From the NCBI RefSeq assembly GCF_002356355.1, contig NZ_AP018052.1, positions 2,046,001 to 2,110,000 on the forward strand: a DNA stretch of 64,000 nt, read 5' to 3'. Position 1 is the first letter of the stretch. The number at the start of each line of letters is the position of its first letter. The notes beneath the pieces are model-generated. The model was not told where the DNA came from. It was given only the letters and a program-made list of their open reading frames with translations, and made no database searches. Below are positions 7,620 through 64,000 of this stretch, in pieces. The stretch is from Thiohalobacter thiocyanaticus (GTDB lineage: Bacteria; Pseudomonadota; Gammaproteobacteria; Thiohalobacterales; Thiohalobacteraceae). The translations under genes were made by a program, and so were the position numbers.

Positions 7620-9584
7620 ATGAACTACAGCAGTAGCGATGATGCCCGATGGCTGCAGAAACATAGCGACGCCTCCCTGCGCCGCCTGCTGCCGCGCATC
7701 GAGGAACGCTACCGGGCCCGCACCGACCCTGCCGAATGGGCCGCCTACGTTGATCGACTGAAGACCTACTTCCCCAGACTGTTCAAGCGCCTGCACGGGC
7801 TGTATGGCCAGCACTACGACTTCTTCTATCACTTGGAGAGCATCCTGGCCTCGGCTACTGAGATGTGGCTCGAACGCCCCGCCGAGCTCAAGGCACTGGA
7901 CGCCATGCGCGAACTGGATCCGCACTGGTACCAGTCCAACCGCATGGTCGGCGCCATGTGCTACGTGGATCTGTTCGCCGGCGATCTCGAGCGGTTGCGG
8001 GGTCGCATTCCCTATCTCACTGAACTCGGCATCAGCTACCTCCATCTGATGCCAGTATTCAAAGTGCCGCAGGGCGACAACGACGGCGGCTATGCCGTGA
8101 GCAGCTACCGCGGGATCGAGCCCCGCCTGGGCGAGATGGAGGACCTGCGCGAACTGGCGACCGAACTGCGCCATCACGGCATTTCGCTGGTGCTGGATTT
8201 CGTCTACAACCACACCTCGGATGAGCACGAGTGGGCCCAGCAGGCACTGCGCGGCGACGAGGAATATCAGGATTATTACCGCATGTTTCCCGACCGAAGC
8301 ATGCCGGACGCCTTCGAACGCAGCATGGGCGAGATCTTTCCCGAGGACCATCCGGGCGCCTTCACTTACCGCAACCGGATCAAGCGGTGGGTCTGGACCA
8401 CCTTCAACACCTTTCAGTGGGATCTCAACTACGAGAACCCGGTGGTATTCAACCGCATGCTGGAGGAGATGCTGTTCCTCGCCAACCAGGGCGTCGAGAT
8501 ACTGCGCCTGGACGCAGTGGCCTTCCTGTGGAAGCGTCTGGGCACGGACTGCCAGAACCTTCCCGAGGCGCACTGGATCATTCAGGCCTTCAACGCGCTG
8601 GTCAGCATCGCCGCCCCGGCGATGGTATTCAAATCCGAGGCCATCGTTCATCCCGACGAGGTCAGCAAGTACATCAGCCCCGAGGAATGTCCACTCTCCT
8701 ACAACCCACAGCTGATGGCCCTGCTGTGGGACGCGCTTGCGACCCGCGACGTCAGGCTGCTGCACTATGCGATGGAACGCCGCTTCGCCATCCCCGAGGG
8801 CTGCGCCTGGGTCAACTATGTACGCTGCCATGACGACATCGGCTGGGCCTTCTGCGACCGGGACGTAGCAGCGGTGGGCTTCGATCCGCGTGCACACCGG
8901 GATTTTCTCACCCGTTTCTATACCAACCGCTTTGAAGGCAGCTTCGCCCGTGGCGCTCCCTTCCAGGAAAATCCCGCCACCGGCGACGCCCGCGTCTCGG
9001 GCACCTGCGCCTCGCTGTGCGGACTGGAAAAAGCGCTCGAGGAAGACGACGCAAACGAACAGGATCTGGCTGTACGACGCATCCTGCTGTTGCACGGAGT
9101 GATCATCACCATCGGTGGCATCCCGCTGATCTACCTGGGCGATGAGATCGGCATGCTCAACGATTACAGCTACGACGAGGATCCGGGCAAGGTGGGTGAC
9201 TCACGCTGGCTGCACCGCTCCACCTTCGACTGGGAGCGGGCAGAACAACGCCGCAACACCTCCACCACCGTCGGTCGTATCTACCAGGGGATCCTGCGTC
9301 TGATTCAGCTGCGCCAGCAGAATGATGCCTTCCGTCGTACCGAAACCGAGATCGTCAACACCGGCAACCGGCACGTATTCGGCTTTTTCCGCAATCATGA
9401 ACAGCACAGCCTGTTCGTGCTGGCCAACTTCAGCGAGCGCGAGCAGCGGCTGGAGGCGCGCTACCTGCGCATGATGGGCATGCGCAAGTCGATGGTGGAC
9501 CTGTTCGCCGGTCGCACCATCATTGCCGCCCAGGAACTGGTGCTGGAGCCCTACCAGCTGATGGTCCTGTCGCGGCTGCATTGA
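7620..9584 (+). CDS. Amylosucrase (GH13 glucosyltransferase)
   Basis: 654 residues, the family's usual length. An N-terminal helical domain (1-90) precedes a GH13 TIM barrel with all core motifs: DFVYNHTS, the nucleophile region LRLDAVAF, the acid/base region VFKSEAIVHP, and VRCHDDIGW. The distinctive N domain and overall pattern fit amylosucrase, which uses sucrose to build alpha-1,4-glucan and releases fructose. In halotolerant and methane- or sulfur-oxidising gammaproteobacteria it links the compatible solute sucrose to glycogen-like storage. No sucrose synthesis gene is in the window. A related GH13 specificity such as sucrose hydrolysis is possible. Confidence 0.9.
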   Translation: MNYSSSDDARWLQKHSDASLRRLLPRIEERYRARTDPAEWAAYVDRLKTYFPRLFKRLHGLYGQHYDFFYHLESILASATEMWLERPAELKALDAMRELDPHWYQSNRMVGAMCYVDLFAGDLERLRGRIPYLTELGISYLHLMPVFKVPQGDNDGGYAVSSYRGIEPRLGEMEDLRELATELRHHGISLVLDFVYNHTSDEHEWAQQALRGDEEYQDYYRMFPDRSMPDAFERSMGEIFPEDHPGAFTYRNRIKRWVWTTFNTFQWDLNYENPVVFNRMLEEMLFLANQGVEILRLDAVAFLWKRLGTDCQNLPEAHWIIQAFNALVSIAAPAMVFKSEAIVHPDEVSKYISPEECPLSYNPQLMALLWDALATRDVRLLHYAMERRFAIPEGCAWVNYVRCHDDIGWAFCDRDVAAVGFDPRAHRDFLTRFYTNRFEGSFARGAPFQENPATGDARVSGTCASLCGLEKALEEDDANEQDLAVRRILLLHGVIITIGGIPLIYLGDEIGMLNDYSYDEDPGKVGDSRWLHRSTFDWERAEQRRNTSTTVGRIYQGILRLIQLRQQNDAFRRTETEIVNTGNRHVFGFFRNHEQHSLFVLANFSEREQRLEARYLRMMGMRKSMVDLFAGRTIIAAQELVLEPYQLMVLSRLH

Positions 9585-53715: not shown

Positions 53716-54453
53716 TTACTCAGACCGATCCTCCGGTTCCCGGTCCGGCGTCTTGTAGCCGTGGATCATGGCCGAGACCAGGCCGCTGCGCTCTTTGATC
53801 TCCGCCGCCACCACCGCCAGGATATGCAGGACTGCCGCACCGCTGAGCACGAAGAAGACCCATTCATGCAGCGTGATGTAGGGCTTACGGAAGGCGCGCA
53901 TCGCCTCCCAGGCCGCCGGATCGACCAGCGTCTTGTCGCCCGGCACCAGCGTCGCCGGGTCCACACCCGCTGCGGCGACCCAGCCGGCGATCCAGCCGCC
54001 GAGCGGCGGATAATAAATATCGGTTCCGGCCAGTACCAGCCCCGTCACGCCCTGCACCGTCAACAGCACGAACAGCACCAGCACCATCAGGCGACCGAGC
54101 GGATTATGCCCCAGATAGCGACGCGGCTCACCGCCGGCCAGACTGCGCAGATATGCCCCGAGTTCGCTGAAATAGCCGCGCCCGAAGGGCAGGACAGCAC
54201 CCCAGCGCGCATAACGGCTGCCGACGAATCCCCACAGATAGCGCCAGAGGAGATTCAGCACCATCACGTAGCCGACCCACACATGGAAGGTTTTGAGAAA
54301 TACCTTGGCCTCGGCGGAAATACCCAGCGCCTTGCCGTTGTAGATGATCAGGCCGATGGCCAGGAGCAGCAGCACGCTGGTGAAGTTGACCCAGTGGAAC
54401 ACGCGCACGGAGCGGTCCCAGACGCGGTAGGTCTCGTTTTCTGACTGTGTCAT
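53716..54453 (-). CDS. Cytochrome b561/hydrogenase-type b-heme membrane protein, copy 1
   Basis: 245 residues, four or five membrane helices. Candidate heme-ligand histidines: VFHWVNF (about 19), TFHVWVGY (about 55), TLHEWVFF (about 195) and VLHILAVV (about 208). It fits the cytochrome b/b6 domain family that passes electrons between quinone and a periplasmic partner. No partner gene such as a cytochrome c is adjacent. A paralog of identical length is at 59186-59923. Confidence 0.9.
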   Translation of the reverse strand: MTQSENETYRVWDRSVRVFHWVNFTSVLLLLAIGLIIYNGKALGISAEAKVFLKTFHVWVGYVMVLNLLWRYLWGFVGSRYARWGAVLPFGRGYFSELGAYLRSLAGGEPRRYLGHNPLGRLMVLVLFVLLTVQGVTGLVLAGTDIYYPPLGGWIAGWVAAAGVDPATLVPGDKTLVDPAAWEAMRAFRKPYITLHEWVFFVLSGAAVLHILAVVAAEIKERSGLVSAMIHGYKTPDREPEDRSE

Positions 54454-54562
54454 TATGTTCGCCTCGGTTTACGGATCTGGAAACAGGATACCGCCTTCAG
54501 CTGAATTCAAACTGAAAGCAGACAGCTGAGGACTGAGGGCTGACACCGGAATGACGGATCAA

Positions 54563-55606
54563 TCAACGCCCCCCTTGCAGTCGTTTCAGCATACGTTTCA
54601 GCGATCCAGCCAACCGTTCATGCATGCCTTCAGGCTCAACCCCTTTCACACAGCCCAATACGAATCGTTCCCTGCGCTCAGACATCCAGTCCTGCTTGTA
54701 AGCGTCATTGCCGGTCAGAAAATCGATCTCATCCACCGCTTCGGCATCGATCACGTATTCCATCATAAAACTGGTGAGTATCGATCCCGGCGAATACTGC
54801 CTCCACGCCTCATCATACGCCAGCCTGAAGATGTTCGCCTTGCCGTGGAGCACAAACCAGAGTTGAGCCGCGACAGGCTTGGCCTGAACATAAAGAACTG
54901 CCAGCCGCGACCAGCCCGACCTCGAAATCCCGGCCACAACACCGTCAAGAAAATCCGCATATTGTTCATTCGCCTTCCAGCTGGCCGTATAAACTGCGTG
55001 ATAGTCGGGCATTGCCTGCGGCACCTCCAGCCCGGCAAACAGGCGAATTTCATAGCCGTGCTCGCGTTCGAGCTTGCGTTTCTTGCGGGCAATGGTATTG
55101 CGCAACCTCCCAGGACGGGCCGCCATGTAGTCTTCATACGATTCCCCCTGTACACGATAAATCCAGCTGTACAGGCGAAAATCATAATCACAACTGAATC
55201 CGACCGATTCCAGGCTCCGTTGCAAGCCGCGCATTCTGTCATCATCGTCGGCAACCGGCTCCAGGAGCAAGGCACGGATCGACAGCCGGCTCAAACCTTC
55301 TGCCAGGCATTCGAGGATCCGCTGTTGATCATTCTCCGCAAGCAGAAAACTGTAAAGCGAGGTGTATCGGTGCCTGAGGGCATACCAGGCATGTCCGGCC
55401 CGCCGCATAAGCGGCAGGATCGCCAGCACGTCATCTTCTGCCACCACGCAGGCCAACACCAAAGCCTGATCATCATCAAGGGCAGAGGCAGTCAGTGCCT
55501 CAAACCACGGGCGGGAGAGAAAAACACTGTTCATTTCCCCCTGCCTGAAAAGCGCATCGGCACTCTCCGGCAGTTGGTTCCAGTCGGTATAGCAAACGAA
55601 CTTCAT
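54563..55606 (-). CDS. BioF2/FemAB-like GNAT acyltransferase, copy 1
   Basis: 347 residues. The C-terminal GNAT-like half contains YHAVYTASWKANEQYADFL, AAQLWFVLHGKANIFRLAYD and EIDFLTGNDAYKQDW, as in Acetyltransf_6 proteins often tied to polysaccharide or cell-envelope synthesis. The N-terminal half has LSRPWFEALTASALDDDQ. No membrane segment. Paralog at 57073-58104. I take the second in-frame ATG (MKFVCYTDW) as start, although MLM two codons earlier is possible. Confidence 0.85.
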   Translation of the reverse strand: MKFVCYTDWNQLPESADALFRQGEMNSVFLSRPWFEALTASALDDDQALVLACVVAEDDVLAILPLMRRAGHAWYALRHRYTSLYSFLLAENDQQRILECLAEGLSRLSIRALLLEPVADDDDRMRGLQRSLESVGFSCDYDFRLYSWIYRVQGESYEDYMAARPGRLRNTIARKKRKLEREHGYEIRLFAGLEVPQAMPDYHAVYTASWKANEQYADFLDGVVAGISRSGWSRLAVLYVQAKPVAAQLWFVLHGKANIFRLAYDEAWRQYSPGSILTSFMMEYVIDAEAVDEIDFLTGNDAYKQDWMSERRERFVLGCVKGVEPEGMHERLAGSLKRMLKRLQGGR

Positions 55607-55642
55607 CAACAAGCCCGGCAGAAACGGCGGCGGCGCCTCCGA

Positions 55643-56932
55643 TCACCCCTTCTCTGTGTCCGCTGTTTCTGCCACAGCCAATGCCTGTACTGCTGCAACA
55701 TCCTCATCCAGCAGAAGTCCCTTCCGGGCATAAACCAGTGCCCGGGCCGAATGCCGCAGTGCGGCCTGGCGCATCACCGCATGCCCCGCCGCTGCCAGCG
55801 TCGCCATCGCCTTCTGCACCCGGATCGCCACCTCCAGAGAAGCACACCCATCACGTTCTATCGCAATAAAGGCATCGTCGAACATATCCTCGACCGAAAG
55901 TTCGGGCACCATTATCCGGTCGTACAGGATCTCGGCAGTCTCACCCTCATCCAGGGGAGCGGACCAGAACAGGAACAGCCGGACCAGTGTACCGCAGACA
56001 TCGATCGCAGTGCCCGGGTCATTCACCGCAGGCGACAGTGCGCGGGCGGCAATCTGGGAAAGCACCACCAGCCCGTAGCGCGGATCCTCGTAGTAGGTGC
56101 GTTGCTTATCGATCTTGAACGCAGCAGCAACCACGTGCGGCTCCCAGTCCTTCGCATCTGCATCAGCCATCACATAGGCCAGCACCCGTTCCGGGCTGAC
56201 GAAGGAACCGGGCAGCACCACCACCCGAACCTTCCCGTCAATCTGTTCAGCGAATTCCTGCAGGCTGGCGACATCGATTCGCTGCACATACCCCGCCGAC
56301 TCGGCGGTAACAGCCACGCCCGAGTCGTTTTCCGGGTCGTCCTGAACGGCGCAAAGCGTCGGCGCAATCCGGCGCTGCCCGAGCGCATTGACGGTCGCCT
56401 CCTCCACCTGATCGACCGTATTGCCCAATCGGCCCAGCCTTGCGATGCGGTCCACCCAGTAGACAAAGGTCAGAATCACCAGTCCGAACACGAAAGCCGT
56501 GAACAGGAACAACACAAAAATTCCCGCCCCCCCGAAAAAACCGTTCTTGGCTGCCGTCAGACCCACAATACTGAAGATGAAGGCACCGATGAAAGTGGAA
56601 AGCGCCCGTTGAGAGATGTCATCGGCGATGACCAGGGCGAAGGAGCGCGGCGATGCCGTGGTACTGGCCGAGGCGTAGGCTGAGACCATCGACGCGACTG
56701 CGAAAGTAGCGATGACCAGCATGCTGGAGGCCATGATGGAAAGCAGCGATTCAACGGATTCGGCCGAGACACGTGGCAACACAGTCGCCAGCCGGGTATA
56801 GCTGTCGGCCTTCGAGGCGGCCAGCGCCGCCGCAATGGACAGCAACCCGACCATCAGCGGCTTGACCCACAAACGCTCCTGCAGTTGCACAAAGATGAAC
56901 CTGGCCCGACTCACCATACCGTTCACAGTCAT
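55643..56932 (-). CDS. DUF2254 membrane protein
   Basis: 429 residues. Four membrane segments (about 25-45, 62-85, 110-135 and 140-165) are followed by a long soluble part. Features include FAVASMVSAYASASTTASPRSF, typical of DUF2254, and the C-terminal DPRYGLVVLSQIAARALSPAVNDPGTA. Function unknown. It lies between two paralogous acyltransferase genes in the same direction, 36 bases before copy 1. Confidence 0.88.
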   Translation of the reverse strand: MTVNGMVSRARFIFVQLQERLWVKPLMVGLLSIAAALAASKADSYTRLATVLPRVSAESVESLLSIMASSMLVIATFAVASMVSAYASASTTASPRSFALVIADDISQRALSTFIGAFIFSIVGLTAAKNGFFGGAGIFVLFLFTAFVFGLVILTFVYWVDRIARLGRLGNTVDQVEEATVNALGQRRIAPTLCAVQDDPENDSGVAVTAESAGYVQRIDVASLQEFAEQIDGKVRVVVLPGSFVSPERVLAYVMADADAKDWEPHVVAAAFKIDKQRTYYEDPRYGLVVLSQIAARALSPAVNDPGTAIDVCGTLVRLFLFWSAPLDEGETAEILYDRIMVPELSVEDMFDDAFIAIERDGCASLEVAIRVQKAMATLAAAGHAVMRQAALRHSARALVYARKGLLLDEDVAAVQALAVAETADTEKG

Positions 56933-57072
56933 TTCAGCGTCCCTTCAGATACACAGAAACCCGCGACGGCGAATCAGGCTACAATGATGGCGCGAATCCG
57001 GTTCTGCATACAGGAATGCGCGTCCCGAACACCCGTTCATCGGGCCCGCAAATGCGGCGCTGAAACAGTTGC

Positions 57073-58104
57073 CTACCGCCCTTTCAGCATACGCTTCATC
57101 GATTCAATCAACAGCCCATACCGTCCGGGCAGCTTGGCTTGTTTCACGCAGCCCAACGCGAAACGCTCCCTGCGCTCCGACATCCAGTCCTGCTTGTAGG
57201 CGTCGTTTCCCGTCAGAAAGTCGACCTCTTCCACCCCGTCGGCATCGATCACGTACTCCATCAGGAAACTGGTGAGTATCGAACCCGGCGAATAGCGCCG
57301 CCATGCCTCGTCATATGCCAGCCTGAAGATACTCGCCTTGCCATGCAGCACGAACCAGAGCTGCGCGGCAACCGGCTTCCCCTTGGCATAGAGAACCCCC
57401 AGTCTGGTCCAGCCCGGTCGCGAAAAGCCCGCCACCATGCCGTCCAGGAATCCCGCGTACTGCTCATTTGCCTTCCAGCTGGCTGTGTAGACCGCATGGT
57501 AAGCGGCCAGCGCCGGCGGCACCGCGTCTCCAGCGAACAGACGGATCGCGCAGCCGTGTTCACGCTCGAGCTTGCGCCGCTTGCGGGCGATGGTGTTGCC
57601 CAGCCTGGCGGGTCGGGCCGCCATATAGTCCGCATGAGACCGCCCCTGCACACGATGAATCCAGTTGTACAGGCGAAAGCTGCGATCACAGCTGTATCCG
57701 GCCGCCTCCAGCGCCCGTTGCAGACCATTTATCCTGCTGTCATTGTCAGCAACCGGCTCCAGCAGCAATGCCTGCAGCGGCAGCCGACTCAGACCTTCGG
57801 CGAGGCAGGCGAGGACCTCCGACTGATCATCATCCGCGAGCAACAGACTGTAAAGCGGAGTATAGCGGTGCCTGAGAGAGTACCAGGTATTTCCGGCGCA
57901 GCGCTTCAGGGGCAGGATCGCCAGCACCGCACCGCCCGCCACCACGCAGGCCAGCACCAGGGTCTGACCCTGATCAAGCGCGGTGGCCGCCAGGTTCTCG
58001 AACCAGGGGCGGGAGAAAAAGATACTGTCCTGCTCGCCCTGTGCGAAGAGCACATTGGCACTTTCCGGAAGTTCACTCCAGTCGGAGTAACATATGAAGT
58101 TCAT
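57073..58104 (-). CDS. BioF2/FemAB-like GNAT acyltransferase, copy 2
   Basis: 343 residues, aligning along its whole length with the protein at 54563-55606, with most residues the same (for example YHAVYTASWKANEQYAGFL and DFLTGNDAYKQDWMSERRERF). Copy 2 lacks a few C-terminal residues. Both appear intact, so both may function. The two flank the DUF2254 gene, implying a local duplication. Confidence 0.85.
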   Translation of the reverse strand: MNFICYSDWSELPESANVLFAQGEQDSIFFSRPWFENLAATALDQGQTLVLACVVAGGAVLAILPLKRCAGNTWYSLRHRYTPLYSLLLADDDQSEVLACLAEGLSRLPLQALLLEPVADNDSRINGLQRALEAAGYSCDRSFRLYNWIHRVQGRSHADYMAARPARLGNTIARKRRKLEREHGCAIRLFAGDAVPPALAAYHAVYTASWKANEQYAGFLDGMVAGFSRPGWTRLGVLYAKGKPVAAQLWFVLHGKASIFRLAYDEAWRRYSPGSILTSFLMEYVIDADGVEEVDFLTGNDAYKQDWMSERRERFALGCVKQAKLPGRYGLLIESMKRMLKGR

Positions 58105-58196
58105 CAACAAGGCTGGCGATAGAGAAGTTCCGGGATTCAGGAAAAGAGTGCCGACCCCTTCATTACAACGAAAAGGCGGCCGGGTTGAGCGCCGGG

Positions 58197-58382
58197 TTAG
58201 ACCAAGCTGGTACCATTATCAACCTCCTTATCGGGTACAGCCAAAACAACTTCTCCTTGTGAATTGTAAAATCCTGTTATCAGACATTCAGACTTGATGG
58301 GACCGATTTGCTTCGGTGGAAAGTTGACGACTCCAATTAGCTTTTTCCCCATCAGCTCATCTTTACTGTAGAGAGTTGAATG
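58197..58382 (-). pseudogene. C-terminal remnant of a CsaA-like tRNA-binding protein
   Basis: Minus-strand frame of about 61 codons ending TAA at 58197. It reads HSTLYSKDELMGKK, LIGVVNFPPKQIGPIKSECL, ITGFYNSQGEVVLAVPDKEV and DNGTSLV, which is the C-terminal half of the tRNA_bind/CsaA domain. The N-terminal half is missing; upstream sequence belongs to another gene remnant in a different frame. Confidence 0.75.
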
Positions 58383-58456
58383 TCTTTGGTAATCCGCTTC
58401 GAATAGCGGCCCTGACGAATTTTCTCAGCCTCCTTGCCCTTGAACGATTTGATCAT
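58352..58456 (-). pseudogene. N-terminal remnant of a HigB/RelE-type toxin
   Basis: 34 codons from ATG at 58456: MIKSFKGKEAEKIRQG, RYSKRITKDIQ, then out-of-family residues and a stop. The beginning matches HigB-type toxins of the RelE superfamily, which are about 90 residues long. The frame is lost where the CsaA-like remnant begins; the two overlap by about 30 bases in different frames. No antitoxin gene follows. Confidence 0.65.
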
Positions 58457-58539
58457 AACGCCAATGCTACCGCGCCGCATTAGTATTATCCAGCGCCCCG
58501 ATTTCTGGTCTCGTGAGTTCTAACGAGATGAATAAGGGG

Positions 58540-59121
58540 CCGAACACGGCCTGCCCGACGCCGGCACCTTCACCCTGCTGCTCTGGCGCTACGCCGCCCT
58601 GAGCCTGGTGCTGGCACTGGTGCTCGCCCTGCAGCCGCTGGCAACGGGCACCTTCTCAGGGTGGATGGCCGGAGAAACCGCGAGTGCGCGACAATGGACA
58701 GGACTGGTACTGAGGGTTCTGCGGCGTGGCGTTCACCGTCTGCGCCCGCAGCAACTGGGACGACAGCGGCTCCATCTTCGGCTATCTCATCCAGTTCGGC
58801 TCGATGGCGGCCATTACGCTGGCCAGCCTGCAGCAGCGTCGTCGGGAGGTACTGGCGTCCCATTGGAGTCCCGGGTTCCTTGCCACCATGGCCCAGCTCA
58901 TCCTCGCGGTATCCCTGGACGGCTATGGCCTGATGTGGCTGCTGCTGGCACGAATTGACGCTATGCGCGTCGCCAGCCTGTTCTATCTGGGACCGCCGGG
59001 CACCATGCTGATGACCTGGATCGCATTCTGGGGTCACCTGTTCGCGACCGATATCACCGGGTTGGTGATTGCGGTCGCTGGTGTGGTGCTGGCTCAGGGC
59101 GTTCACCAACGCCTCAGCTGA
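58540..59121 (+). pseudogene. Decayed copy of the EamA/DMT transporter gene
   Basis: Relative to 52752-53651 it lacks the 5' end (homology begins at GAACACGGCCTGCCCGACG). It has an internal deletion joining the second membrane helix region to LALQPLATG, a frameshift near 58715-58725 (VLRVLRRGV versus AFTVCARSNW), and a second deletion after QQRRREVL joining to SHWSPGFLATM. The rest (YGLMWLLLARIDAMRVASLFYLG) is still recognisable. It cannot encode a full transporter. Confidence 0.9.
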
Positions 59122-59185
59122 GCGGAAATCAGGGTGCGGGCGCCCTGACTTCAGGCTGCTGTCACGCAACCCACTGCCTTGGCGA

Positions 59186-59923
59186 TCATTCAGGCCGATC
59201 CTCCGGTTTCCGGTCCGGCGTCTTGTAGCCGTGGATCATGGCCGAGACCAGGCCGCTGCGACTCCGGATCTCGAGGACCACCACGGCAAGGACATGCAGC
59301 AGCGCTGCACCGCTGAGCACGAAAAAGACCCACTTATGCAGCGTGATGTAGGGCTTGCGGAAGCCGCGCATCGCCTCCCAGGCCGCCGGATCGACCAGCG
59401 CCTTGTCGCCCGGGACCAGCGTCGCCGGATCCACGCCGGTCGCGGCGACCCAGCCGGCGATCCAGCCGCCGAGCGGCGGATAGTAGATGTCGGTGCCGGC
59501 CAGTACCAGACCCGTCGCGGCCTGCACAGTCAGCAGTACGAACAGCACCAGTACCATCAGGCGGCCGAGCGGATTGTGCCCCAGGTAGCGACGCGGCTCA
59601 GCGCTGACCAGGCTGCGCAGATACGCGCCCAGTTCGCTGAAATAACCGCGTCCGAAGGACAGGACAGTAGCCCAGCGCCCGTACCGGCTGCCGACGAACC
59701 CCCACAGGTAGCGCCATGCCAGATTCAGGGCCAACACGTAGCCGACCCAAACATGGAAGGTTTTGAGGAAGACCTTGGCCTCGGCGGAAATGCCCAGCGC
59801 CTTGTTGTTGTAGATGATCAGGCCGATGGTCAGGAGCAGCAACACGGCGGAGAAATTGACCCAGTGGAAGACGCGCACGGAGCGATCCCATACGCGATAT
59901 GTTTTAGTTTCAGGTTGCGCCAT
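59186..59923 (-). CDS. Cytochrome b561/hydrogenase-type b-heme membrane protein, copy 2
   Basis: 245 residues, the same length as copy 1 at 53716-54453 and nearly identical over most of the chain; all four candidate heme histidines are kept (VFHWVNF, TFHVWVGY, TLHKWVFF, LLHVLAVV). Unlike the neighbouring transporter copy it is intact. I start at the ATG at 59923 (MAQPETKTY), equivalent to copy 1. Confidence 0.9.
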   Translation of the reverse strand: MAQPETKTYRVWDRSVRVFHWVNFSAVLLLLTIGLIIYNNKALGISAEAKVFLKTFHVWVGYVLALNLAWRYLWGFVGSRYGRWATVLSFGRGYFSELGAYLRSLVSAEPRRYLGHNPLGRLMVLVLFVLLTVQAATGLVLAGTDIYYPPLGGWIAGWVAATGVDPATLVPGDKALVDPAAWEAMRGFRKPYITLHKWVFFVLSGAALLHVLAVVVLEIRSRSGLVSAMIHGYKTPDRKPEDRPE

Positions 59924-60249
59924 CGGTGTTTCGCCCCGGTCTACGGATTCGGCTGACAAGATACCGCCATCAGCTGAATTCAAACTGAAAAATTGTATCA
60001 GTGAAGAATCAGTATCAGGAAAAGCCGGATTGATTTCCTTTGCGTCATCCCGGCGTCGGCGGGATCCAGGGAAAATCAGCCACATGGCTGCCGATCGGGG
60101 CCCGACCGGCTTGTGGGCCGGCTGAGCATTACCGAACTTCCCGCATGGACCACTGGAGCAGAAATATCCTCGGTGCATCTTGATCTCCCTCAACCTATAC
60201 TTCAGCCTGCACGACTGGATGCTGGTCAGGCAAAAGATGGATAGGTGAT
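59924..60249. other. Divergent region between cytochrome b copy 2 and the HAD-ATPase gene
   Basis: 326 bases without a gene. The first 70 bases match the region before cytochrome b copy 1, including CAGCTGAATTCAAACTGAAA (59971-59990), so the duplication includes the promoter. A small palindrome (GTCATCCCGGCGTCGGCGGGAT) is near 60044-60064. ATAGGTGAT before 60250 gives a ribosome-binding site. Confidence 0.5.
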
Positions 60250-61959
60250 ATGCGTTACCTTGCACTTGTAACGGACTACGACGGGACACTGGTTTCAGAT
60301 GACAGGGTATCGGAGCCTGTCGCGCAGGCCCTGGAGCGCCTGAGGGTTTCCGGCAGGCGGGCGATTCTGGTTACCGGTCGACGGCTTGACGATCTGCTTG
60401 CGGTCTGTCCCTGCGCACGGTTGTTCGACCTCGTGGTAGCAGAGAACGGCGGCATCGTCTACGACCCGCACAGCCGCGAAGAGACGCAGCTTGCCCCTTC
60501 CCCATCCAAGCTGCTGATACAGGGCCTGCAGAGGCATGGGGTCGAGCCGCTTGAGGTCGGACAGGTCCTGGTGGCGACACAGGCGCCGCACCGCACGGTG
60601 GTCCAGGACCTCATCTGGGAACTCGGTCTCGAAGCCCAGGTGATCGGTAATCGCGGTGCGGTGATGGTGCTCCCGGCAGGTGTCAACAAGGCGACGGGGC
60701 TCGAGTACGCACTGCGTGAACTGGGGCTTTCGCGCCACGAAGTGGTGGGAGTCGGTGACGCGGAGAACGATCACTCCTTCCTGGAGCGCTGTGAGTGCGC
60801 CGTGGCAGTGGCCAACGCGGCACCGTCCATCAAGGCGATTGCCACCTTCGTCACCACGGCCGAGAACGGGAACGGGGTTATCGAGCTGATCGATGAATTG
60901 ATCACTGACGATCTGGACCGGGTGACCGGCACGCTGCCACAACATCTGGTCCTGTTCGGCAAACGCTCGGATGCAACCACGGTGCAACTTCCACCTTACG
61001 ATCACAACATACTGGTTGCCGGGCCTTCCGGCAGCGGCAAATCCACCCTCGCCGCCGGCGTCGTCGAGCGCCTCATCGAAAAGGATTACCAGGTTTGTAT
61101 CGTCGACCCGGAGGGTGATTACGGAACGCTGCGCGACGTGGTGGCGCTCGGCAACCAGTGGCGTGCACCGAGTGTGGCCGAGGTGGTGTCGATACTCGAA
61201 GACGCCAGGGTCAATGTCAGCGTCAACCTGCTTGGCATCGCATTGGGCGATCGGCCGGATTTCTTCGCCCAACTCATACCCAACCTGCAGGCCATGCGCG
61301 CCCGCACCGGACGGCCACACTGGCTGCTCGTGGACGAGGCGCACCACATGCTGCCCAGCACCTGGGGTCACGCCGCCTCCGTGCTGCCGCAACAACTCCA
61401 CGAGACCATCCTGGTCACCGTGCATCCCGACCAGGTGGCCCCGGCCATCCTCGCACCGATCGACGTGGTTGTGGCCATCGGGCATTCACCGGAAAAGACC
61501 CTTGGGGAGTTCGCCACCGCAACGAACCAGCCGCTGGCCTGGCCCGAGGGCTTGTCCTATCAACCGGATTACGTCGTCGTCTGGTACCTCCGGGACGGAC
61601 AGCCGCCGTTTTCGATGCAGCCACAACGTGGGCGGGCCGAGCGCATCCGCCACCACCGCAAGTATGCGGAAGGCAATCTGCGCTGGCACAGCTTCTATTT
61701 CCGCGGCCCGGACAATCATCATAACCTGAAGGCGCAGAACCTCCATGTCTTTTCCCAGATCGGCGAGGGCATCGACGAGTCAACCTGGATGTTTCATCTC
61801 CGCCGCGGCGATTATTCGCGTTGGTTCCGCCACGTGATCAAGGATGATTATCTCGCTGACGAGACAGGGCGCATCGAGCGGCGTGCCGACCTCGCGCCCT
61901 GGCAGACACGACAGATGATCCGGGAGTTGATCAATGCCCGCTACACACTGCCCGAATAA
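60250..61959 (+). CDS. HAD-superfamily phosphatase fused to HerA/DUF87-like P-loop ATPase
   Basis: 569 residues. Domain 1 (1 to about 225) is a Cof-type HAD hydrolase: motif I DYDGT (9-13), motif II VTGR (41-44), Lys147 in GVNKATGLEYAL and motif IV GVGDAENDHSF (167-177). Domain 2 (about 240-460) is a P-loop ATPase: Walker A GPSGSGKST (258-266) and Walker B WLLVDEAHHML (358-368), similar to HerA/DUF87 proteins. About 100 further residues end the chain. The joined function is unknown; the HAD part resembles sugar-phosphate phosphatases. It is followed by mgtE after 301 bases. Confidence 0.85.
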   Translation: MRYLALVTDYDGTLVSDDRVSEPVAQALERLRVSGRRAILVTGRRLDDLLAVCPCARLFDLVVAENGGIVYDPHSREETQLAPSPSKLLIQGLQRHGVEPLEVGQVLVATQAPHRTVVQDLIWELGLEAQVIGNRGAVMVLPAGVNKATGLEYALRELGLSRHEVVGVGDAENDHSFLERCECAVAVANAAPSIKAIATFVTTAENGNGVIELIDELITDDLDRVTGTLPQHLVLFGKRSDATTVQLPPYDHNILVAGPSGSGKSTLAAGVVERLIEKDYQVCIVDPEGDYGTLRDVVALGNQWRAPSVAEVVSILEDARVNVSVNLLGIALGDRPDFFAQLIPNLQAMRARTGRPHWLLVDEAHHMLPSTWGHAASVLPQQLHETILVTVHPDQVAPAILAPIDVVVAIGHSPEKTLGEFATATNQPLAWPEGLSYQPDYVVVWYLRDGQPPFSMQPQRGRAERIRHHRKYAEGNLRWHSFYFRGPDNHHNLKAQNLHVFSQIGEGIDESTWMFHLRRGDYSRWFRHVIKDDYLADETGRIERRADLAPWQTRQMIRELINARYTLPE

Positions 61960-62260
61960 CGCGGCCGCATATGGATGTCAGCGTGTGCGCCCTCGTTGCG
62001 GGCATGGACGCGCAGAAAACCCTGAACCCTCTCAGCATTCTGCCGGTGTGCGCGAGTCCGCCGGGTCGGTGGGTGGCCTTCGCCGCAAGGGCCTTCGGTC
62101 TGTCGCGGGCGAATCCACGCAGCCGCTGCCGGAATTCACCTGAAGGAAACCGTTTTCGAAGCCGCCGATATCCAGGAACTCGAAGCGCCTGCATGGCCCG
62201 GAGCGCCCCGTCCTGGGATGATGGATTGAACACCCATGATTTGGTCGGAGAGCCAGCACG
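61960..62260. other. Gap before mgtE with a possible gene remnant
   Basis: 301 bases. From 62131 to 62229 one frame reads GIHLKETVFEAADIQELEAP and AWPGAPRPGMMD before a TGA, with protein-like composition and no start. It may be the C-terminal end of a deleted gene, not identified. GGAGAG nine bases before 62261 is the mgtE ribosome-binding site. Confidence 0.4.
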
Positions 62261-63604
62261 ATGAGAAAGAATGAAACAAGCCCGGGCGCTACGATGCCCC
62301 CGGAAGATGCCTCGAACGAGACCATCCGCCATTTCGTCCAGACGGCGCATGCGGTCGATCTGGCCGCCTGGCTTGCGGAGCTTCCGCAAGACCTGGCGCA
62401 GGAGCAGATTCTGGCACTGGCGCAGCCCCGGCAGGCCGAAACCTTCAGCTATCTTTCGCTCGACGTTCAGGCAGCGCTCGCCCGACGGCTGGGTCGCCGG
62501 GAATTGGCGGAAATCGTCACCCGGATGGAAGCCGACGACCGCGTCGACCTGTTCAACCATCTAAAACCAGAAGAACAGCAGCGGCTGCTGCGCGATCTTG
62601 CGCAGGAGGAGCGCGAGGATATCCGGCGCCTGTCGACCTATGCCGAAGAAACCGCTGGTGCAATAATGACCTCGGACTATGCGACGCTGGCCACATCCAT
62701 GTCGGCGCATGAAGCGATCGAGGTGCTGCGGCGTGAGGCGCCCGAGAAGGAAACCATCTACCGGTCCTATGTCCTCGACGCCGACCGCCGGCTGATCGGC
62801 TCGGTTCGACTGGTGGAATTGATCCTGGCTGGCACCGATACGTTGATCGCCGAAATCATGGACCCGGATCCAATGGCTGTCACGCTGGACACGGATCAGG
62901 AGGAAGTCGCCCGGTTGATCGCACGCTATGATCTGACGGCACTGCCGGTAATCGATGAGCATGGCAGACTGGTCGGAATCATCACGCGCGACGACGCGGA
63001 AGATGTGATGCAGCGTGAGACCACGGAGGATTTTCAGAAGATCGCCACGGTCATCCCGTTTTCGCAGAGTATACGCGAGGCCGGCAAGAGTGTACTTTAT
63101 AAAAAGCGGATCTTCTGGCTTGCGCTGCTGGTATTCGGCAACCTGTTTTCGGGCGCGGGGATCGCGTTCTTCGAGGAGACGATCCTGGCCTATGTGGCAC
63201 TTGTATTCTTTCTTCCGCTGCTAATCGACAGCGGCGGCAATGCCGGGTCTCAGGCGGCCACCCTGATGGTGCGCGCGCTGGCCACGGGCGACGCGGCATT
63301 GAAAGACTGGCGCGACCTGATTCTACGCGAGTTGACGATCGCGACGGCGCTGGGGGCGACCATGGCGCTCATTGTCTCGCCGATCGGGTTGCTGCGTGGC
63401 GGCTCCGACATCGCGCTTGTAGTGAGCCTGACGATGATGCTGGTCGTCATCGTCGGGAGCTTGGTGGGGATGTCGCTTCCGTTTCTGCTCAGCCGGCTGC
63501 GCCTCGACCCCGCGACCGCCAGCGCGCCGCTGATCACAACGATATCGGATGTGGTCGGCGTGCTGATCTATTTCTCGCTTGCGACATCGATACTGGGCCC
63601 CTGA
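62261..63604 (+). CDS. mgtE: Magnesium transporter MgtE
   Basis: 447 residues. The N domain (about 20-135) is followed by two CBS domains (about 140-260; IMDPDPMAVTLDTDQEEVARLI and LPVIDEHGRLVGIITRDDA) and five membrane helices (about 290-445) with the pore motif PLLIDSGGNAGSQAATLMVRAL. It passes magnesium through the inner membrane, gated by CBS/N-domain Mg binding. Its end overlaps the convergent stress-protein gene by 37 bases. Confidence 0.96.
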   Translation: MRKNETSPGATMPPEDASNETIRHFVQTAHAVDLAAWLAELPQDLAQEQILALAQPRQAETFSYLSLDVQAALARRLGRRELAEIVTRMEADDRVDLFNHLKPEEQQRLLRDLAQEEREDIRRLSTYAEETAGAIMTSDYATLATSMSAHEAIEVLRREAPEKETIYRSYVLDADRRLIGSVRLVELILAGTDTLIAEIMDPDPMAVTLDTDQEEVARLIARYDLTALPVIDEHGRLVGIITRDDAEDVMQRETTEDFQKIATVIPFSQSIREAGKSVLYKKRIFWLALLVFGNLFSGAGIAFFEETILAYVALVFFLPLLIDSGGNAGSQAATLMVRALATGDAALKDWRDLILRELTIATALGATMALIVSPIGLLRGGSDIALVVSLTMMLVVIVGSLVGMSLPFLLSRLRLDPATASAPLITTISDVVGVLIYFSLATSILGP

Positions 63605-64000
63605 TCCGGGCTATCCCCGGGCCCTGTACCGTCCAGTGTGCGACAGATCAGGACATCGCAGGCTGCATTGTTCAAGACCCGCTGGGTGACGCTGCCGAGC
63701 AGCGCCCGGCGGATCCTGCCCGTGCCACCGGGTCCCAGCACGATCAGGCCCACCTTCGGGCTCCATGTCGCCCGTACCAGTGATGTCGCCGGATCGCCGG
63801 CAAGGACCCGCGCCATGCCTCTTATCGGGCGTGGGTCCAGCCTTTTGGAAGCAGCGTTCAGCTCGGCTTTCGCCTTGCGCACCAGGGCCTGGCGATGGGC
63901 CGCTACGCTTTGGCCAACGCCCGCGTGCAGCATCGCCGCTTCGAGTTGGGGCGGGATCTGCACCACATGGATCAGGTAGAGTCCGGCCTGCGGAAGCAAC
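63568..64000 (-). CDS. Universal stress protein (UspA family), 5' end outside window
   Basis: About 143 visible residues. LYLIHVVQIPP is the second strand of the Usp fold and VGLIVLGPGGTGRIRRALLGSVTQRVL is the ATP-binding G-2x-G-9x-G-S motif. The first strand and start codon, roughly 30 residues, lie beyond the window edge. The C-terminal 20 residues (GTGPGDSPDQGPSIDVASEK) look like a flexible tail. Confidence 0.9.
   Translation of the reverse strand, partial: LLPQAGLYLIHVVQIPPQLEAAMLHAGVGQSVAAHRQALVRKAKAELNAASKRLDPRPIRGMARVLAGDPATSLVRATWSPKVGLIVLGPGGTGRIRRALLGSVTQRVLNNAACDVLICRTLDGTGPGDSPDQGPSIDVASEK

Follow-up and report, generated by a model that had tools for sequence, protein, structure and literature searches.

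A conserved bacterial protein that joins a HAD-IIB phosphatase, a HerA-type ATPase core, and a DUF5752-like domain

A single unbroken open reading frame with an ATG start codon, at 60250-61959 (+) of the 64,000-nucleotide stretch of Thiohalobacter thiocyanaticus DNA analyzed here (the window), encodes a 569-residue protein that is a three-part fusion of a HAD-IIB phosphatase, an ATPase of the HerA fold, and a DUF5752-like domain. The domain types are already known, while the combination, the family that carries it, and its link to trehalose and TreT are new. The fusion is tentatively read as a phosphatase of stress islands that acts on a disaccharide phosphate or sugar phosphate and is coupled to its ATPase (probability about 0.35). 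HerA-type ATPases are known as DNA motors and defense parts, and if this reading is true, a conserved one in stress islands that is fused to a phosphatase of small molecules would put the fold to a new use.

Architecture of the fusion protein

An earlier note on this DNA had described the gene as a HAD phosphatase fused to a HerA/DUF87-like ATPase. The fusion is real, but a third, strongly conserved C-terminal domain (residues 459-569) was missed. The features of the gene and its neighbors in the window are the following:

60250-61959 (+): whole gene, HAD-IIB phosphatase, HerA-type ATPase core, and DUF5752-like domain, 569 aa (ORF reading; 39 aligned sequences of the same architecture)
60250-60903 (+): HAD-IIB phosphatase domain with a small C2-type cap, residues 1-218
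60274-60288 (+): HAD motif I, DYDGT, with catalytic D9 and D11 (D9, D11, and T13 invariant in 39 sequences)
60688-60690 (+): HAD motif III, Lys147 (invariant in 39 sequences)
60754-60771 (+): HAD motif IV, GDAEND, residues 169-174 (G169, N173, and D174 invariant, D170 nearly so)
60931-61614 (+): ATPase core of the HerA/FtsK clade without HAS barrel, residues 228-455
61021-61044 (+): Walker A, GPSGSGKS, residues 258-265 (G258, G263, and K264 invariant)
61324-61347 (+): Walker B, LLVDEAHH, residues 359-366 (E363 and H365 invariant, D362 nearly so)
61624-61956 (+): DUF5752-like domain, residues 459-569 (RHxRKYAEG...FYFRGP...NLxAxNL...GDYSRWFRxxIKDxxLA)
62261-63604 (+): neighbor outside the protein, magnesium transporter MgtE
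63568-63999 (-): neighbor, universal stress protein (USP), cut by the window edge

In the alignment of 39 members (35-85% identity to the query), both enzymes have catalytic motifs that vary little or not at all; conservation covers the HAD motifs, Walker A and B, a DPEGDY motif, and the C-terminal blocks RHxRKYAEG, FYFRGP, GDYSRWFR, and IKDxxLA. Motifs kept in this way across sequences of the same architecture show that the fusion is neither a chance joining nor an assembly artefact. The AlphaFold model of the whole protein, from which the family members on plasmid records were left out, has a mean pLDDT of 88.6 and a pTM of 0.76. A search for a sigma-70-like promoter upstream of the gene found none, which says little.

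The head carries the complete set of HAD motifs (D9-x-D11-x-T13, T42-G-R, K147, and G169-D-A-E-N173-D174). In Pfam it matches Hydrolase_3 (PF08282, E 4.8e-27) and S6PP (PF05116, 42.6 bits against a cut-off of 20.3), and in NCBIfam the HAD-IIB model TIGR01484 (79 bits, above the cut-off of 41.8). The Cof model TIGR00099 stays at 97 bits, below its 137-bit cut-off, so that “HAD-IIB” is a safer label than “Cof”; the complete HAD domain and motifs proposed earlier stand. Models for phosphoglycolate phosphatase reach 97-99 bits, likewise below their cut-offs, and among the best 25 NCBIfam matches of the query no equivalog is reached at its own cut-off. The OtsB models PF02358 and TIGR00685 are absent among the best 25 matches listed for the query in Pfam and NCBIfam. 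Foldseek confirms the HAD-IIB fold and the C2 cap, with archaeal PH1421 as the best structure (1wr8, E 3.5e-17, TMt 0.82). The structure list holds HAD-IIB sugar phosphatases, with trehalose-6-phosphate phosphatases lower down, and the close structures include archaeal phosphoglycolate phosphatases.

The P-loop ATPase with intact Walker motifs is confirmed. DUF87, the HerA central domain, is matched at residues 254-323 (Pfam, 35 bits against a cut-off of 23.2, E 1.9e-8), and PF01935 is found in 18 of 18 members. When modeled separately, the part after the head matches HerA in a VIA comparison (Z 20.3, 3.1 Å over 228 residues) that barely covers the C-terminal part of the protein. HerA, VirB4, and TrwB dominate the structure list of the core (215-235 residues aligned, Z 15-20), and by this fold the P-loop does not belong to an ordinary kinase family, a possibility that the earlier note had named beforehand. 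In PADLOC the core scores highest against mad8 (50 bits, residues 235-413), ahead of the HerA models there. As the head ends at residue 218 and the core starts at 228, the roughly 10 residues between them leave no HAS barrel.

The final ~110 residues of the query alone match no family above cut-off, and the DUF5752 score lies under the Pfam cut-off. Across the family, DUF5752 (PF19027) is matched weakly in 16 of 19 C-terminal segments, and an hhalign comparison with five DUF5752 proteins aligns it to their first repeat at 96.3% (E 1.9e-9). The C-terminal profile finds 4cso in the PDB, OrfY from Thermoproteus tenax (E 1.4e-4). A blind profile scan of 200 genomes returned, besides family members, one gene (in genome G102), which a separate DUF5752 scan also names (8e-83). 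In a divergent homolog (L116), Hydrolase_3, DUF87, and DUF5752 all exceed their Pfam cut-offs within one protein, DUF5752 narrowly (23.2 against 23.0). At the level of sequence profiles, the domain is taken as a relative of DUF5752 with one repeat present; the two tandem repeats of DUF5752 (~208 positions) were not found in the C-terminal region of ~110 aa. Conservation in its blocks is close to that of the enzymes, so that it looks like a functional domain rather than a tail. No match was found when plasmids were searched for DUF5752, and a literature search, whose coverage leaves out most subscription journals, found no described function for DUF5752.

Spread of the family and its stress-gene surroundings

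The three-part protein is present in at least 45 genomes, which belong to more than eight phyla. A scan of genomes yielded 53 loci, the majority of which match residues 1-569 at full length with 39-85% identity, in Beta-, Gamma-, and Alphaproteobacteria, Planctomycetota, Acidobacteriota, Chloroflexota, Myxococcota, Bdellovibrionota, Bacteroidota, and Chlamydiota. Plasmid records extend the family to Cyanobacteria and Actinomycetota, where annotation, if present, reads merely HAD hydrolase. The earlier note knew of no well-studied protein with this domain order. A literature search for the HAD-HerA-DUF5752 architecture likewise found no description, which, with most subscription journals outside its coverage, is not proof of absence. 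What had looked like an odd local fusion is a three-domain family of many phyla, and a local artefact or a recent odd fusion is rejected.

The distribution is patchy. The gene occurs in one of the 11 genomes of the host family, and it is missing from the two other genomes of the host genus, one of them just 78% complete. The tree places Loosdrechtia (Planctomycetota), a Polyangiaceae MAG, and an acidobacterial MAG among Proteobacteria, where MAG binning errors are a possible explanation for single misplaced cases, and Pseudomonadota require at least five changes on starred branches. The fusion gene has a GC3 of 0.76, compared with 0.81-0.96 for several genes of the window, and the G+C content of the window drops from 64% (1-54000) to 61% (54000-64000). 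Taken together, the patchy spread, a tree that does not follow phyla, G+C, and GC3 favor, without proving, horizontal transfer, as the earlier note had suspected. Loosdrechtia also carries two fusion copies (L030, L012), one of its own lineage’s type and one of proteobacterial type, which suggests transfer or mixed binning. No full-length homolog was found in the phage records and viral contigs searched, and a phage or viral origin is rejected.

At its own locus, the fusion gene is followed by mgtE (TIGR00400, 376 bits against a 233-bit cut-off), and, in a stretch that runs past the window end (L119 1569-4837), by three USP genes in a row and then a V/A-type ATPase operon; cytochrome b561 is also among the neighbors read. 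The two neighbors reported before, mgtE and a USP gene at the window edge, are thus correct, the latter being the first of three. Universal stress proteins are the commonest neighbor family (17 of 258 neighbor ORFs). They are present at 18 of 52 fusion loci and at none of 31 arbitrary stretches taken from the same genome set with the same search (Fisher P 6e-5), a comparison that is mildly biased, as the search seeds came partly from the test loci. Phosphoketolase, P-type ATPases, and CBS and BON proteins also recur. Most fusion loci are stress islands. Trehalose genes rarely adjoin the fusion and are rejected as its usual neighbors, with TPS beside it at 2 loci. MgtE-type matches occur at only about 4 loci, too few for an MgtE partnership, which is rejected. 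Of the suggested “stress or ion-homeostasis module,” the stress part is therefore borne out across loci, whereas ion homeostasis is weak, since MgtE occurs at few loci and universal stress proteins at many.

Elsewhere in the window, two paralogous PF13480 acetyltransferase genes (54563-55612 (-) and 57073-58110 (-)) flank a gene for a DUF2254 membrane protein (55643-56932), likely by local duplication. At 7620-9584 (+) lies the gene for a 654-aa GH13 protein whose C-terminus weakly resembles the amylosucrase type, co-directional with a pyridine-nucleotide oxidoreductase gene.

Trehalose and sucrose synthesis around the relatives of the outer domains

The strongest functional lead, trehalose/α-glucan metabolism, was missed by the earlier note and comes from the nearest relatives of the two outer domains. 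Two members of one genus, the draft genomes G194 and G197 (each rated 100% complete), have a stand-alone HAD, ~50% identical to the query head, that leads a co-directional cluster in the order HAD-GT4-debranching enzyme-OtsA (L096 7310-13319 and L097 6505-12973). OtsA is present and Trehalose_PPase (PF02358) is absent in both genomes. G071, a third member of the genus, carries the cluster GT4-debranching enzyme-OtsA-OtsB, with OtsB confirmed as a trehalose-phosphatase by TIGR00685. A noncanonical HAD heading the OtsA cluster where OtsB is missing, and OtsB in the third genome, form the pattern of non-orthologous displacement. By this gene order, the stand-alone HADs are candidates for a new trehalose-6-phosphate phosphatase, and they would put a name to the missing enzyme in OtsA genomes without OtsB. 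In the HAD tree, built with a quick method, they are nested in the fusion family as sister to an Aminobacter fusion (SH-aLRT 95), whose gene adjoins GT4-debranching enzyme-TPS divergently. G194 has a fusion gene elsewhere in its genome as well.

Full-length DUF5752 genes adjoin TreT in five of five loci examined, three of which also have an OtsA-type gene. The orders are TreY-TreZ-TreT-DUF5752-glycogen phosphorylase in G102, a member of the host’s class (L095 2007-11368), OtsA-phosphatase-DUF5752-TreT in G535 and G399, OtsA-type protein (731 aa)-DUF5752-TreT in G361, and TreT-DUF5752 inside an apparent α-glucan cluster in G512; TreY, TreZ, and the G535 phosphatase (T6PP) score above cut-off, and the TreT and OtsA assignments are strong scores below it. 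Their place in TreT/OtsA-type clusters makes the relatives of the C-terminal domain trehalose-operon proteins, and the fusion family is a first handle on DUF5752. Chloroflexota DUF5752 proteins of ~460 aa (L110, L112, and L113) have an extra N-terminal half that is membrane-bound in appearance and recalls the mechanosensitive-channel gene of the T. tenax trehalose operon (PMC3634074).

Profile searches of the host genome found neither OtsA nor OtsB (no PF02358 match). The host has a fused sucrose-phosphate synthase/phosphatase gene that is directly followed by sucrose synthase (L118 4214-8796). Because it lacks both trehalose enzymes, makes sucrose, and has its own sucrose-phosphate phosphatase, no one substrate stands out in this host; trehalose-6-phosphate is the best-supported candidate substrate for the stand-alone relatives only, as judged from their clusters. 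Among OtsA-less hosts, Thiobacillus and Thioalkalivibrio have sucrose-synthesis matches, Thiorhodococcus has a weaker one, and others have TreS above cut-off. The fusion family often accompanies makers of stress sugars, of no single kind. Most genomes that combine the fusion with OtsA have canonical OtsB as well. A general replacement of OtsB by the fusion is rejected, since most OtsA genomes keep PF02358 and the host has neither enzyme.

Proposed role, alternatives, and known systems

The fusion would act as a cytosolic stress protein that has spread horizontally. Its head would dephosphorylate a small sugar phosphate, most likely a trehalose-6-phosphate-like α-disaccharide phosphate or a close sugar-phosphate relative. 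Without the DNA-entry HAS barrel, the HerA-type core is probably an ATP-dependent assembly or switch that links phosphatase output to the energy state of the cell, and not a DNA pump. The DUF5752-like domain probably docks the protein on a sugar-transferase partner, since free-standing DUF5752 proteins are encoded beside TreT. The absence of OtsA and OtsB from the host, its own fused sucrose-phosphate synthase/phosphatase, the canonical OtsB kept by most genomes that have the fusion and OtsA, the archaeal phosphoglycolate phosphatases among the close HAD structures, the rarity of trehalose genes beside the fusion, and a DUF5752 likeness of one repeat only speak against this reading. A broader form, in which a HerA-type ring diverted from moving DNA to a new task would gate a widespread sugar-phosphate phosphatase, switch compatible-solute synthesis with the energy state, and dock on glycosyltransferases via the DUF5752-like domain, is unlikely.

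Possible, if doubtful, is a general repair or housekeeping phosphatase for phosphoglycolate or a broad range of hexose phosphates, in which the trehalose link of the two relatives would be incidental and the ATPase a regulatory ATP sensor. Phosphoglycolate matters for autotrophs, and several fusion hosts are autotrophs by name (Thiobacillus, Nitrosomonas, and Thioalkalivibrio). The phosphoglycolate phosphatase models among the best sequence matches and the top structure match PH1421 would suit such an enzyme. Heterotrophs, however, carry the fusion as well (Niastella, Ktedonobacteria, Pseudomonas, and Rhizobium), Rubisco or glycolate genes are not prominent in the neighbor tallies, and both the position in the OtsA clusters and the DUF5752 link would be left unexplained. 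The ATPase fold, which matches HerA defense complexes, and the mad8 score could instead point to a defense or nucleic-acid device that pairs a HerA-type motor with a HAD nuclease or phosphatase effector, by analogy to the SIR2-HerA and DUF4297-HerA anti-phage systems or to Mad8 of MADS. This is improbable, as no restriction, methylase, or nuclease gene (NurA or other) and no other mad or MADS gene lies among the own-locus neighbors read, the tallies are headed by universal stress proteins and not by defense genes, the HAS barrel is absent, full-length homologs are missing from the phage records and viral contigs searched, and HAD-IIB enzymes handle small molecules.

Bifunctional kinase-phosphatases exist, and around Walker A there is weak similarity to APS kinase in Pfam and the PDB, which would allow the P-loop to be a kinase-like or nucleotide-handling enzyme that, with the HAD, controls how much of a phosphorylated metabolite or protein is present. 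These matches are confined to the P-loop, whereas over its whole length the domain aligns with HerA, VirB4, and TrwB and its DEAHH Walker B and DPEGDY motif fit HerA; the fold rejects the kinase reading of the P-loop and leaves such an enzyme little likelihood. Equally slight is the chance of a protein-level regulator, with a HAD acting on phosphorylated proteins or a DUF5752-like part in transcription. The title of 4cso calls OrfY a transcription factor, but this label was not traced to a publication in a search that left most subscription journals outside its coverage, and Pfam scans of the C-terminal domain named no DNA-binding family.

With HAD-IIB sugar phosphatases (Cof/YidA/SupH, sucrose-phosphate phosphatase, and PH1421) the head shares motifs I-IV, the C2-type cap, and the fold, and the protein differs from them in that the HAD is joined to an ATPase and a third domain. 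Canonical OtsB (PF02358) is also of the HAD superfamily, whereas the head belongs to a different subfamily, HAD-IIB; the likeness lies in a stand-alone relative that occupies the place of OtsB in two genomes. HerA/DUF87 ATPases (archaeal HerA, SIR2-HerA, and DUF4297-HerA) have the core fold (Z about 20) and Walker A and B in common with the query, and DPEGDY is the counterpart of the HerA DxxGEY motif. The query carries a HAD domain where their HAS barrel would be, and no nuclease partner is seen at its locus. Mad8 of MADS, the best PADLOC match of the ATPase part, lacks the additional HAD and C-terminal domains and belongs to a system of which no other gene is seen beside the fusion. DUF5752 and T. 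tenax OrfY (4cso) align through their first repeat with the C-terminal domain, which has one repeat in place of two and is joined to a HAD and an ATPase.
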